64,000 bases of DNA from the NCBI GenBank assembly GCA_005893275.1, contig VBOW01000027.1:1-64000 (forward strand). Reading direction: 5' to 3'. Below, piece by piece: positions 5,460 to 64,000 of the stretch. The DNA is from Candidatus Eisenbacteria bacterium (lineage in GTDB: Bacteria > Eisenbacteria > RBG-16-71-46 > SZUA-252). The notes beneath the pieces are model-generated. The model did not search any database. It was not told where the DNA came from and saw only the letters and a program-made list of their open reading frames with translations. A program made the translations under genes and the position numbers. Positions within the stretch are counted from its first letter, which is position 1. The number at the start of each line of letters is the position of its first letter.

Positions 5460-8198
5460 ATGCCGAGCCAGCTTGGCCGTCGCAAGCATCGGACGGTCCT
5501 CGCCTGCGTCGTCGCGCTCCTCCTCGGCCTCACCTTCGTGGGACCTGCGGTTTCGTCCGCTCAGGCACAGACCGGCGCGATCACGGGAAAGATCACGGAT
5601 GACAGTGGAGTCGGGGTGCCGTACGCGAACGTCTTCATCAAGGGAACCCAATTGGGGGGGATGGCCAACGCGGAAGGGAAATTCACCATCACCAAGGTGC
5701 CCGTCGGCGCGTACACCCTCTCCGTGAAAAGCGTCGGCCACGCCACGGTCGAGAAACCCGTCCAGGTGAATGCCAACCAGACCGCGACGGTCAACTTCCA
5801 GATATCGGAGCAGGCGGTCAAGCTCAAGGGTGTCGACGTCAAAGGAGACGTCAAGATCGCGATCCGCAAGAAGGACAGCTCCACGAAGCAGATCGTCACG
5901 AGCGAAGATCTCCGCTCGCTCCCGGTGGACAACTACAAGGAGGCGATCGGGCTCAAGGCGGGCGTGATCAGCCAGGGAGGCGAGCTTCACTTCCGCGGCG
6001 GACGGGGGGACGAGGTCCTCACGATCGTGAACGGGATCGCGAGCCGCAATCCCATGCGCGCCGAGGGGGTGGATCTCGGGCTCCTCGCGGTGTCCTCCAG
6101 CGAGCAGGTGCTCGGAGGTCTGGACGCTCAGTACGGGAACGCCCTTTCGGGCGTGATCAACCTCACGACACGCGAAGGGGGCGACAAGTTCGGGGGCGAG
6201 GTCCGGTACTTCACGGACCGTTACGGCGAGGCCGACAAATCCTTCAACAATTTCGAACGGCTCAGCACCGGCTTCGGGGGGCCGTTCCTCTTCCCGAAGA
6301 CGAATTATTTCATCTCATTCGAGGGCACGTACACGGACACCTATCTCCGGAACGTCGCGACCCACCGGGAGCATCGGTTCCTGGATTTCATCCGGCTCGG
6401 GAACCGGCAGTCGAACAGCGCGAAGCTCTCGAGCAAGCTGACGTTCAAGCTGACCCCGAACGAGAAGCTCAACTTCGAGGTCATCAAGAACCGGAGCCTG
6501 GACGGAGAGTTCAACAACCGCTGGAATCGGCAGGGGTTCGTCCACGTCATCCAGGATTCCACGGCGCCGACGGACGGCACCGTCACGACCCGATACGGCG
6601 CCTGGTCCTATTTCCAGGTGGATTCAAGCTACATCCCGATCAATACCGCGGAGCATCTTCCGGTTACCGAGGAGGACTACCTCCAAACGGCGGTGACCTG
6701 GAAGCACACGCTCGGCGTCGGCACGATTTACAACCTGCGCGCGGGACGGCAGCAATGGGAAACGACGAGCGACGTGCTCGACCGGATGCCCTGGGAGTAC
6801 CAGCAGCTGCCGAACAACTACTACGACCCGCAGAACCGGTTGGAAGGGCCCTACTACGTGACCAACGGTGACTATCCCCACTTCGAGCGAAAGCGCACGG
6901 TCACGTATACCTTGAACGGGGATTTCTCGAAACGGCTTGGAAAACCGGCGGACCAGGGCGGGCACCCCCACAATCTCATGACCGGCGGGGACATCAACTA
7001 CAACGACCTGGGATTCCTGAGGACGAATTTCCCGAATATCCTCACCGGGCAGGGTCTCTACGGCGCCGACCGGGACGAGTTCCGTTTCTTCAATCCCGAG
7101 GGCTCGTTCTTCGTCCAGGATCGCTGGGAATACGAGGGGATGGTGCTGAACGCGGGAATCCGGTATGACAACTTCTCCGTGGGAAACCAGATCTCGTCGG
7201 CCGAAGTGCGCGACCGGGTCAAGACGCAGATCAGCCCCCGGATCGGCATCGCCTACCCGATCTCGGATCGGGACGTGATGAGCTTCCACTACGGCCGCCT
7301 CTTCCAGGTGCCGGATCGGCAGTACATCTATCAGGGGCGCCTCATCTCGGCGACCTCGCGCGGCAATCCGAATCTGGAGCCCCAAACGACGATCAGCTAC
7401 CAGCTCGGAGTCCAGCACCTCTTCAGCAAGGACATCTACGGCCAGTTCGGCGTCTACTTCAAGGACATCTTCGGGCTCCTCACCACGGTGGACCAGGCGA
7501 TCCCGGGCTTCGCGATCACCATCCCAACGTACGTGAACGCCGATTACGCGTCCTCCCGAGGGGTGGAGTTCACGCTGATCAAACGCTTCAGCCGCGGGTT
7601 CGCCGGCGAGCTCAACTATACCTATGGGAACGCCACCGGCACGGCGTCGGACCCCAACCGCGCCTTGCCGAACCAGGGGAATCTGCGGGACCAGTTCAAA
7701 CCCATAGCCGAGCAGCCGCTCGACTGGGACCAGAGGCACAACATTTCAGCGACGTTGAGTCTGGGGAACGAGAAGGATTGGCGCGCGTCCTTTGTCTACC
7801 AATTCGGGTCGGGCTTCCCGTTCACGCCGCACCTGCGGGAGGAGCGGCGGCAGAATCCCGATCTCATCAACTCGCGGCGTCTCCCCTCCGTATCGACGCT
7901 CTCGATGCAGGGGGAGCGGTTCTTCAGGGCGTGGGGCCAGGACCTCACGTTGTACGTGCAGGGCACGAACCTGCTCGACGCGGAGAATATCAGCAACCTG
8001 GAACCGGATCTCTGGCCGCCGGGCGCCATCAACCCGAAATCCTACAATGTCTACTACACGGAGACAGGTCGCGCGGGGGGCGCGTTCCTGACCCAGGACC
8101 AAGACGGAGACGGCCGAGAGGATTGGTACCCGGTCCACGATCCGCGGGTGTTCCAGCAGGGACGCACGATCCGGGTCGGGCTCGGCGTGCAATTCTAG
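5460..8198 (+). CDS. TonB-dependent outer-membrane receptor with carboxypeptidase-like regulatory domain
   Basis: A 912-residue receptor. After a clear signal peptide (basic MPSQLGRRKHR, hydrophobic core, SAQAQ cleavage) comes a CarboxypepD_reg-like domain (about residues 40-120, GKITDDSGVGVPYANVFIKG). Next are a plug domain with ELHFRGGRGDEVLTIVNG and a 22-strand-type barrel containing FFVQDRWEYEGMVLNAGIRYD and TSRGNPNLEPQTTISYQLG. It would import a ligand across the outer membrane using TonB-ExbBD energy; the substrate cannot be inferred. The start is set at the ATG 11 nt after AAGGAG, because an in-frame TTG 150 bp upstream would hide the signal peptide. The protein ends with a typical barrel strand, GLGVQF. 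It leads a cassette of secreted and outer-membrane proteins. Confidence 0.9.
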   Translation: MPSQLGRRKHRTVLACVVALLLGLTFVGPAVSSAQAQTGAITGKITDDSGVGVPYANVFIKGTQLGGMANAEGKFTITKVPVGAYTLSVKSVGHATVEKPVQVNANQTATVNFQISEQAVKLKGVDVKGDVKIAIRKKDSSTKQIVTSEDLRSLPVDNYKEAIGLKAGVISQGGELHFRGGRGDEVLTIVNGIASRNPMRAEGVDLGLLAVSSSEQVLGGLDAQYGNALSGVINLTTREGGDKFGGEVRYFTDRYGEADKSFNNFERLSTGFGGPFLFPKTNYFISFEGTYTDTYLRNVATHREHRFLDFIRLGNRQSNSAKLSSKLTFKLTPNEKLNFEVIKNRSLDGEFNNRWNRQGFVHVIQDSTAPTDGTVTTRYGAWSYFQVDSSYIPINTAEHLPVTEEDYLQTAVTWKHTLGVGTIYNLRAGRQQWETTSDVLDRMPWEYQQLPNNYYDPQNRLEGPYYVTNGDYPHFERKRTVTYTLNGDFSKRLGKPADQGGHPHNLMTGGDINYNDLGFLRTNFPNILTGQGLYGADRDEFRFFNPEGSFFVQDRWEYEGMVLNAGIRYDNFSVGNQISSAEVRDRVKTQISPRIGIAYPISDRDVMSFHYGRLFQVPDRQYIYQGRLISATSRGNPNLEPQTTISYQLGVQHLFSKDIYGQFGVYFKDIFGLLTTVDQAIPGFAITIPTYVNADYASSRGVEFTLIKRFSRGFAGELNYTYGNATGTASDPNRALPNQGNLRDQFKPIAEQPLDWDQRHNISATLSLGNEKDWRASFVYQFGSGFPFTPHLREERRQNPDLINSRRLPSVSTLSMQGERFFRAWGQDLTLYVQGTNLLDAENISNLEPDLWPPGAINPKSYNVYYTETGRAGGAFLTQDQDGDGREDWYPVHDPRVFQQGRTIRVGLGVQF

Positions 8199-61375: not shown

Positions 61376-64000
61376 TTGCCGTTCGGGCCCCGAGGGAGGA
61401 ATGCCTTTTTCCCGAGCCCGCCCGCTCTCCGAGCGGCCCGAGGCGGCTTCGCCCGCAATCTTTTCGCCTGGTATTTTGGCTGGGCCCTGATCCTAGCGCC
61501 ATCCGCCGCCACCGCCGCGACCTTCTACGTCGATAACGCAAATCCCGCTTGCTCCAATACTGGCCCCGGGACCCCGACAGCACCCTATTGCACCATCTCG
61601 GCCGCCATCGCGGCACACAAGGGACCCGGAACCACGATATACGTCCGTCCCGGCCTCTATCCGGAGCAGATAACCGTTCCGGCATCGGGGGACTCAGCGA
61701 GTCCGTTCGTCATCCAGGCATTGGGTGCGCCGGTAACGGTGGACGGGTCGGATGATTTCTCGGCGACTGCCGAGTGGACGCTCTACTCAGGGGATGTTTG
61801 GCTCGCCTCGAGTGTGACGTGGAGCCCGCTTCAGGTTTTTGCCGACGGAGCCAGACTCACCCCCTCCTCGGCCTCGCCGAGCGCGCTCCCTCTACGGACG
61901 TTCCACTATGTCTCGGGCACGGGGCTCTATGTTAACGCGGGCGGCGGCAATCCGGGATCGCACCAGTCGCGGGTGGGTCGGCGGGCATATGGCTTCCGCC
62001 TCTCGGGCCGCTCGTGGGTCACGATCAGCGGATTCACGGTGACCCGAACCGAAGACCGGGCGATCTACCTGAGCAGCAGCTCCAACCACTGCGTCGTCTC
62101 AAGCAACTCGGTGAATCTCGCCCGCCACTACGGGATTGGGATCTCGGCGTCCACGGGCGTGCTGGTGACATCCAACGTGATCTTCGACAACCAGGACCAC
62201 GGAATCTCGCTGTCGTCCACGAGCGACGGGTGCACGTTGCAGGACAACGAGTCGTTCCGGAACGCGGATCCCTCGACGCGTAGGGCGAACGGCATCTCCT
62301 TGAGCGGCTCCAGCGGCAACCTCGTCCAAAGGAATCGCCTGCACGACAACCAGGATACGGGGCTCCAGTTCGGCAGCTCCTCCAATAACAACATTTCAAT
62401 CGGGAACATCTCCTGGAACAACGGCGATCACGGCTTTCACCATCTCAGTACTTGCACCGGGACCGTGCATCGACACGAGGTAGCCTATGGGAATTTCAAC
62501 GATGGGTTTGCCGTGGAGGGCGGCTGCACTGGTACGAGCGTATTCAACTGCATCGCGGTAAGTAATGGGCTCACGCAGGGCGGGCTCGATCTCTGGGTGG
62601 ATAGCGGCTCCGCGCCGGGGTTTGTGTCGGACTACAACCTCTTTTGGAACTCGACTTCGGCGGCTCCTGTCAAGTACATCTCGACCACTTATCCCTCTGT
62701 CGCCGCCTACAGCGCCGCCACCGCGCAGGACGCGCAGTCACTCCAAAGCGACCCGCGGTTTGTAAATCCCGGGGCGGGAGACTTCCACCTGAACTCGAAT
62801 TCCCCGGCGATCGATAATGCTAACTCCTCGGTCAGCAACTGGCCGGCCATGGACGCGGAGGGACGGCCGCGGGTGGACGATCCCTCCACCCCCAACGCCG
62901 GAATCGGTCCCGTCTCCTACGCCGACCGAGGCGCGCTCGAGTTCACGCTGAACGGTGTGCCCCCGGTGGCCCGCCTGACGGTCACGCCGGCGTCGGGCTC
63001 CGCCCCCCTGGCTGTTACCGCAGATGCCTCGACGTCCACGGATGACGACGGGACGATCGCGTCCTATCGATTCGATTTCGGAGACGGCACGTTTGTCGGC
63101 CCACAGACAGCGTCGAGCGCAGCTCACACATACGCGGCCGGTAACTGGACCTGCGGTCTCACCGTGACGGACAGCCAGGGGAACACGAACTTCACGAGCG
63201 CCGCGGTGGCGGTGAGCGGATCATCGAATTTGCCCCCGCAAGGGATCATCAACACTCCGGTCGGCAATGTGACCGTTGTGTCCGGATCATCCGTTTCGTT
63301 CACGGGAACGGCCTCAGATCCGGACAATACGACTCCGTTCACCTACCTATGGGATTTTGGGGGTGGCGCCCCCAACCAGGTCGTAGAGGACCCGGGCGCG
63401 ATCGTATTCAACACGCCCGGCACTTACACCGCCCGCTTTACGGTGACGGACTCCATGGGTCTCGCCGACCCTACGCCCGACTCCCGCGTCGTCACCGTGG
63501 TCGCACCGACGGTCGGAGGTGCCGAAGTCCACTGGACCATGACCGGTCAGAACTCGGTTACCTTTGAATGGGTGGGCAGCGAGGACTTCATTCGTTACGG
63601 CCCGACGACGATATACACCCAGAGCGTGACCGCCACGACGCCGAATCCTATCCCGTTCTCCTCGGCCGGGCCGTTCTGGGAAGCGAAGCTTATCGGGCTC
63701 CAAGAAAACACCCTCTACCACTACTCCATCGGCAGCGGGCCCGACCACACCTTCCACACCCCCCCTCCGGCCGGGAGCTCCGATTTCACGATCTTTGTCG
63801 AGGGCGACATCGCGGACGAGTCCAGTTATGTCAGGATGGGGACGATCCAGTCGCAGATCGCCGCGAGCCCTCCCGCGTTCGTTCTCATGGTTGGAGATCT
63901 CACGTATGGGGGCGCTCATGGACTCAGCAAAGTGGACCATCACTTCAACGACGTCATGGTGTGGTCCCAGGACGCCGCCTACATGCCGGCCTGGGGGAAC
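61376..64000 (+). CDS. Secreted beta-helix/PKD/purple-acid-phosphatase-like multidomain protein, 3' truncated
   Basis: The frame stays open to the right edge, so the C-terminus is missing; 875 residues are visible. In order: Arg-rich N-terminus and hydrophobic export signal (WYFGWALILAPSAATAA, cleavage near residue 47); a right-handed parallel beta-helix of NosD/PbH1 type (~50-515, repeats such as GIGISASTGVLVTSNVIFDN); two PKD domains (~527-615 with DFGDGTF, ~619-711); a fibronectin-like domain as in purple acid phosphatases (~712-800); and the start of a metallophosphoesterase with VEGDIA and MVGDLTYGG. The window ends at PAWGN, where GNHE would follow. The TTG start is uncertain: the frame is closed by a stop at 61259-61261 and no ATG or GTG precedes the signal. 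Confidence 0.8.
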   Translation, partial: MPFGPRGRNAFFPSPPALRAARGGFARNLFAWYFGWALILAPSAATAATFYVDNANPACSNTGPGTPTAPYCTISAAIAAHKGPGTTIYVRPGLYPEQITVPASGDSASPFVIQALGAPVTVDGSDDFSATAEWTLYSGDVWLASSVTWSPLQVFADGARLTPSSASPSALPLRTFHYVSGTGLYVNAGGGNPGSHQSRVGRRAYGFRLSGRSWVTISGFTVTRTEDRAIYLSSSSNHCVVSSNSVNLARHYGIGISASTGVLVTSNVIFDNQDHGISLSSTSDGCTLQDNESFRNADPSTRRANGISLSGSSGNLVQRNRLHDNQDTGLQFGSSSNNNISIGNISWNNGDHGFHHLSTCTGTVHRHEVAYGNFNDGFAVEGGCTGTSVFNCIAVSNGLTQGGLDLWVDSGSAPGFVSDYNLFWNSTSAAPVKYISTTYPSVAAYSAATAQDAQSLQSDPRFVNPGAGDFHLNSNSPAIDNANSSVSNWPAMDAEGRPRVDDPSTPNAGIGPVSYADRGALEFTLNGVPPVARLTVTPASGSAPLAVTADASTSTDDDGTIASYRFDFGDGTFVGPQTASSAAHTYAAGNWTCGLTVTDSQGNTNFTSAAVAVSGSSNLPPQGIINTPVGNVTVVSGSSVSFTGTASDPDNTTPFTYLWDFGGGAPNQVVEDPGAIVFNTPGTYTARFTVTDSMGLADPTPDSRVVTVVAPTVGGAEVHWTMTGQNSVTFEWVGSEDFIRYGPTTIYTQSVTATTPNPIPFSSAGPFWEAKLIGLQENTLYHYSIGSGPDHTFHTPPPAGSSDFTIFVEGDIADESSYVRMGTIQSQIAASPPAFVLMVGDLTYGGAHGLSKVDHHFNDVMVWSQDAAYMPAWGN

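Follow-up and report, generated by a model that had tools for sequence, protein, structure and literature searches.

A beta-helix, PKD and purple acid phosphatase fusion protein in Candidatus Eisenbacteria: a recurrent architecture, in this copy with an altered catalytic centre

Purple acid phosphatases (PAPs) are known mainly as phosphate-scavenging enzymes of plants and animals. The locus described here raises the question of what a module of this family does in an apparently exported protein of Candidatus Eisenbacteria, where it is joined to a right-handed beta-helix of the polysaccharide lyase and epimerase type, and whether such a fusion is an accident or a recurrent feature. The window, i.e., the whole 64-kb stretch of DNA that was analysed, derives from contig C27 of genome G000, which reaches position 65,322, beyond the window.

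The open frame and its domains

The open frame starting at the TTG codon at 61376 comprises 875 codons within the window and 1315 codons up to the contig end at 65320, without interruption. Along this frame, a signal-peptide-like start leads into the right-handed beta-helix and a pair of PKD domains; the complete PAP module comes next, and the contig stops in a series of Ig-like repeats, each about 300 bases long. The features are listed below.

61376..61516, + strand: signal-peptide-like N-terminus, TTG start uncertain (hydrophobic stretch ...NLFAWYFGWALILAPSAATA ahead of ATFYVD, translation read by eye)
61499..62962, + strand: right-handed parallel beta-helix, polysaccharide lyase / epimerase type (profile A2, Pfam Beta_helix and NosD, AlphaFold2 model)
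62957..63211, + strand: first PKD domain (PF18911, best stretch residues 528-608)
63218..63511, + strand: second PKD domain (PF00801, best stretch residues 632-698; outer limits by eye)
63527..63775, + strand: fibronectin-like N-terminal domain of the PAP module (Pur_ac_phosph_N, PF16656, residues 718-789, 21.2 bits, below the cut-off of 30; fold match)
63788..64000, + strand: metallophosphoesterase, first part, running on to contig position 64696 (profile A1, G000:C27:63491-64696)
GDIA 63803, GDLTY 63893, GN(EE) 63995, + strand: metallophosphoesterase motifs inside the window (motif positions)
GHRP 64259, HHEG 64286, AHSH (AHSHNYER) 64367, + strand: metallophosphoesterase motifs past the window, on the contig (motif positions)

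No ATG, GTG or TTG codon other than TTG 61376 lies in frame after the upstream stop (61259) and ahead of the hydrophobic segment, and no convincing ribosome site was seen when one was looked for by eye; therefore, the exact start of the protein is uncertain. Pfam matches above the cut-off were obtained for Beta_helix (67.6 bits, cut-off 25.9), NosD (56.1, cut-off 23.6), two PKD_4 stretches (85.7, cut-off 27) and Metallophos_C (23.6, cut-off 23). The Metallophos model PF00149 gave no match to the fusion protein at E <= 0.1.

The sequence-only reading had proposed this series of domains in a single frame, with a GDxxY motif, and the frame and the domain matches bear it out, the motif being GDLTY. 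A stop or a frameshift before the end of the metallophosphoesterase, which that reading had named as a possible refutation, was looked for past the window and none was found. All seven direct metal ligands are present on the contig; the GNHE motif expected there reads GNEE instead, its Asn codon being the last codon of the window.

The PAP module and the beta-helix

The assignment of the module to the PAPs can be considered secure from its homologues, which are 55-75% identical to the fusion protein, and from its predicted fold. The AlphaFold2 model, built as for the other module from an alignment of locus proteins (pLDDT 75.1), superposes over residues 6-388 on sweet potato PAP (1xzw) with a Z of 37.0 and an rmsd of 2.8 for 350 aligned residues. 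Plant PAPs as a group (sweet potato, kidney bean) give Z 36-37 and cover model residues 6-392, the fibronectin-like domain included, and wheat phytase gives Z 31-32, with a profile match at E 1.7e-16. Plant-type PAPs and the wheat purple acid phytase thus share with the fusion protein the fibronectin-like N-terminal domain followed by a metallophosphoesterase with seven ligands (Z 31.5-37 over 348-357 residues), while the plant-type PAPs are about 20% identical to it, differ from it in the catalytic motifs described below and are not fused to beta-helix, PKD and Ig-like parts.

The residues that we take to be the metal ligands, by their roles in kidney bean PAP (D811, D841, Y844, N875, H963, H999 and H1001 in protein P0001), are all kept, and their columns are invariant in alignment A1; so complete a set suggests that the module binds a binuclear metal centre. 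The departures lie around these ligands. The third motif reads GNEE, whereas GNH[E/D] is found in 24 of the 24 other canonical rows (a count that takes duplicate contig copies once and excludes fragments lacking the motif as well as seven Methylococcales rows, which differ). The codons at this place are AAC GAG GAA, and since the change of a His to a Glu codon needs more than a single-base error, GNEE is not a sequencing slip of one base. According to a study of kidney bean PAP, the equivalent histidine, His202, forms a hydrogen bond with the bound sulfate or active-site anion (PMC2267794). The wheat phytase variant H229A was dropped as a guide to the GNHE histidine, since the corresponding paper places H229 in PAPhy motif 4, and His202 was used instead.

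Furthermore, the glycines of GDxG and GHxH are both replaced by Ala in the fusion protein, the latter also in the related protein L069 and hence not peculiar to this copy; the HH pair (HHEGD) is kept. In a 13-row alignment there are five columns in which no row but that of the fusion protein departs. Three of the five belong to the 21 columns of the motifs, against three of the 42 sole departures of the remaining 12 rows; this comparison (Fisher p 0.011) was chosen post hoc, and one of the fusion protein's three motif changes, at the Gly of GHxH, recurs as Ala in L069, which lies outside this alignment. A fourth sole departure, W174Y, adjoins GNHE. Relaxed selection on the whole module is not supported by the NG86 dN/dS values of 0.12-0.18 in the four pairs of the fusion protein, though dS (1.16-1.45) is near saturation, and the overall divergence of the module is not raised. 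Taken with the motif changes, these values argue that the module has been kept by selection with an altered catalytic centre, and the PAP module of this copy is likely to be weakened or repurposed. Judging from the motifs, hydrolysis of phosphate esters is likely for the paralogues that retain GNHE and doubtful for this copy, so that the earlier proposal that the protein releases phosphate loses ground here.

A side observation concerns annotation: PF00149 fails to list both the fusion protein (window 63488-64000, L009:3488-4705) and L069:5793-10160 despite their clear fold, and in a search of the own genome contig C27 was not among the matches, while C54 and others were recognised. Routine annotation would therefore miss this PAP-like domain.

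As for the beta-helix, the match to profile A2 spans model positions 1-487 of 487. The AlphaFold2 model (pLDDT 82.3) aligns with AlgE6 at Z 34.3 over 306 residues (rmsd 3.3), and AlgE6/AlgE4, the GH BT_1002, rhamnogalacturonan lyase and many others fall at Z 29-34, a ranking in which rows within 1 Z are ties and from which the substrate cannot be told. By sequence, the profile reaches XylC and AlgG (E 1.5e-7 for AlgG). The likeness to AlgG/AlgE and to PL6-type lyases thus consists in the right-handed parallel beta-helix, with a Z of about 34 to AlgE6/AlgE4, while the identity is about 15% and the DPHD motif, the catalytic motif of AlgG, is not kept. In the profile alignment to 4nk8 (AlgG D317A), GIxLTSGATG-type residues stand opposite the DPHD stretch, and a mannuronan C5-epimerase activity of the helix was rejected on this ground. 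Because it has neither the DPHD site nor recognised catalytic residues, the helix may only bind its ligand.

The ligand would be a polysaccharide, judging from the predicted fold and the domain company. CBM_4_9 was detected on two proteins carrying the PAP module, C54 (23.7 bits, below the cut-off of 25.9) and L081 (35.2 bits, above it). Such repeated company with polysaccharide-type domains, which includes the helix and glycosidase fusions of the Methylococcales described below, is the best evidence tying the PAP module to polysaccharides and suggests a link between them. The polysaccharide binding put forward from the window is therefore upheld in an indirect way, through the fold, the repeated pairing with helices in separate lineages and the CBM_4_9 domains.

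Relatives, repeated origin and distribution

Three relatives carry the beta-helix, PKD and PAP parts in a single frame, as the fusion protein does. The first, L069, labelled Nitrospirae bacterium NC_groundwater_959, is complete and has helix, PKD, PKD, PAP, PKD and PKD in 1456 aa; it is collinear with the fusion protein, to which it is 58.7% identical over residues 35-1225, and differs in the two PKD domains after the PAP module. The other two belong to G042 (VBOS01, Candidatus Eisenbacteria WS_2), namely G042:C150 (1202 aa, complete) and G042:C8 (1285 aa, cut by the contig start), and have one PKD between the modules. All three differ from the fusion protein in keeping GNHE, so that being fused does not entail having lost the histidine. 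In G042:C8 (L056), the complete PAP module is followed in the same 1285-aa frame by a partial second copy at residues 783-897, with motifs I and II only and GDLTA in place of GDLTY.

The earlier remark that no described protein with this order was known agrees with the outcome of the literature searches, but in the genomes the order is not unique. Full-text searches returned no paper joining PAP, PKD domain and beta-helix, none on PAP, GNHE, bacteria and domain architecture together, and none with the phrase 'bacterial purple acid phosphatase'; the titles and abstract openings of further papers mention nothing of a helix-PKD-PAP architecture. The combination is thus uncommon rather than unique, and what is new is its recurrence together with the altered catalytic centre.

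The modules also occur unfused in the own genome: the PAP module on C54 (68% identical over 705-1275) and C4 (74%), both with GNHE, and the helix on C51 (66%), C30 (62%) and C57 (49%). In the trees, C54 and C4 group with the PAP part of the fusion protein at moderate support (bootstrap 89 / SH-aLRT 81), and C51 groups with its helix (100/98). For L069, the helix is placed beside another helix from that genome (95/97), and for G042:C150 each of the two parts falls with unfused G042 copies (94/91 and 89/94); because contig ends truncate C51 and that other L069 helix, their unfused state is uncertain. AU tests rejected a single clade of fused PAP rows (p 5.7e-8 for four rows; 0.010 for the fusion protein and L069) and a single clade of fused helix rows (p 4e-6 for three rows, G042:C8 having been dropped as it covers 28% of the helix columns; 0.0019 for the fusion protein and L069). 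A single origin of the fusion is thus rejected on both modules, and the architecture would therefore have been assembled more than once, each time out of modules that the genome already contained. At least three independent fusions are the simplest reading of these trees; repeated gene conversion between fused and unfused copies within one genome is an alternative that looks identical in them.

The Ig-like repeats at the end of C27 (L009:4942-5322) and repeats on contig C66 (L054:5354-5647) are 92% identical over 294 bases, with exact runs of 116 and 72 bases, an identity that we read as recent exchange or amplification; the last 72 bases of C27 match C66 exactly, inside the repeat array of the latter. 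A 24,560-residue open frame in a related genome was discarded as an artefact of a masked run of N.

Within the phylum, the PAP module was found at E <= 1e-30 in 6 of 47 genomes and the helix at E <= 1e-40 in 7 of 47, all six PAP genomes being among these seven (p 6.5e-7 if genomes were independent, although they are related and five come from a single family). Within the class, the relatives identified as Candidatus Eisenbacteria are G037, G039, G042, G044 and G045. In the phylum of L069 the module occurs in 1 of 198 genomes, the one being that of L069 itself, and for this reason a transfer or a mis-binning behind the Nitrospirae label is possible. It was found in 3 of 201 genomes in the order of the methanotroph locus L078, and elsewhere it is sporadic, with single matches in Bacillus, Lederbergia, Myxococcota, Rokuibacteriota and others (27 loci).

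A parallel case is offered by the Methylococcales, in which nine distinct ORFs carry PAP-like modules (L073, L074, L076 with two, at 7917 and 5195, L077, L078, L079, L122 and L126), 59-62% identical to the query for loci of the PAP-module search. Like the fusion protein, seven of the nine join the module to polysaccharide-type partners: six (L073, L074, L076:7917, L077, L122, L126) to Beta_helix / Pect-lyase_RHGA_epim or Pectate_lyase_4 and one (L078) to a glycosidase core; L076:5195 is a PAP-like module alone and L079 reaches the contig end. They differ in the reversed order, the PAP-like part coming first, and in the replacement of four of the seven metal ligands, the same in 9 of 9 ORFs: first Asp to Asn, Tyr to Leu, Asn to Asp or Glu, last His to Asn. 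Such uniformity indicates a metal site that is conserved and rewired rather than decaying.

Proposed function and its rivals

The fusion protein is proposed to be an exported, probably surface-attached, multidomain protein whose helix and PAP module act on one extracellular polymer, a proposal that we regard as evenly balanced between being right and wrong. The N-terminal beta-helix, with its mannuronan epimerase / polysaccharide lyase fold, would hold or act on a polysaccharide, and the two PKD domains would space it from the module of plant-PAP fold, which would remove phosphate from phosphorylated sugars; alternatively, in this copy, the metal site might bind a phosphorylated or acidic group, with catalysis slow or absent. 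Joint action on one polymer is suggested because the fusion recurs and the modules co-occur in genomes.

An extracellular location would follow from the Ig-like repeats together with a type IX sorting domain of the kind suggested by its relatives. C27 ends inside the repeats, before the C-terminus and thus before any sorting domain. Complete relatives end in FlgD/T9SS-like tails, mostly near or below curated cut-offs; among the fused relatives the T9SS tail TIGR04183 scores 23.2 bits in G042:C8 (cut-off 23, above) and 20.4 in G042:C150 (below). On these grounds export and a location at the surface or in the matrix seem probable. In the own genome a SprA_N homologue is encoded at G000:C18:55410-56627 (78.5 bits, cut-off 27, in a frame of 1996 aa), a candidate type IX secretion translocon; SprA_N was found in 0 of 14 control genomes. 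Our literature search found no paper on Eisenbacteria and type IX secretion together.

Three other explanations of the locus have to be weighed. Were the frame an assembly chimera, a beta-helix gene would have been joined to a PAP gene via a shared PKD repeat, as might happen in a genome with many PKD copies and on a contig that ends inside repeats. Nevertheless, the best own-genome copies of the junction (62900-63600) match it at 73% over 151, 70% over 185 and 78% over 65 bases, no exact match of 25 bases or more was found between it and seven own-genome stretches, and the collinear L069 protein comes from another assembly. The exact-match and whole-genome DNA searches of the junction, together with the independent assemblies, lead us to reject a chimera as extremely improbable. 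The frame may instead be genuine and yet devoid of functional coupling, one neutral combination among helix, PKD, Ig and PAP modules shuffled by repeat recombination in a gene family. The fusion alone says little about joint function, because genomes of this kind freely reshuffle their PKD, Ig and beta-helix modules, and both the modules standing apart in this genome and the many Ig and PKD repeats, some 92% identical between contigs, are what shuffling would leave behind. By the trees, however, the pairing arose at least three times, including in assemblies labelled Nitrospirae and WS_2, unrelated pectate-lyase-type helices are paired with the module in methanotrophs, and the modules co-occur at the genome level, so that a neutral combination appears quite unlikely.

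The remaining explanation grants the coupling and a fully active PAP, which would scavenge phosphate from organic phosphate compounds held by the helix, phosphorylated polysaccharides among them, the Glu of GNEE replacing the His in its role. The retained metal ligands and HH pair, the purifying selection and the GNHE paralogues C54 and C4 in the same genome are in its favour; the GNHE histidine, on the other hand, is absent only here among 25 canonical rows, and PF00149 does not recognise the domain though it recognises C54 and others. Full activity of this copy is therefore rather unlikely in our judgement.

A wider reading, which goes beyond this protein and which we regard as less likely than not, is that bacteria have recruited the PAP fold several times independently as a polysaccharide-acting or -recognising partner of right-handed beta-helix enzymes. 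In some lineages it would remain a phosphatase that acts on phospho-polysaccharide beside the helix, and in others (in part in this protein, wholly in the methanotrophs) its metal site would be rewired to a non-phosphatase centre for binding or catalysis. The PAP-like domain of the fusion protein escapes the usual Pfam Metallophos model, which is a warning for annotation. A bacterial branch of PAPs that is repeatedly fused to polysaccharide-type helices and loses its catalytic site by degrees would suggest one of two things: that phosphorylated extracellular polysaccharides have been overlooked as a substrate, or that a metallophosphatase fold has become a sugar-binding module.
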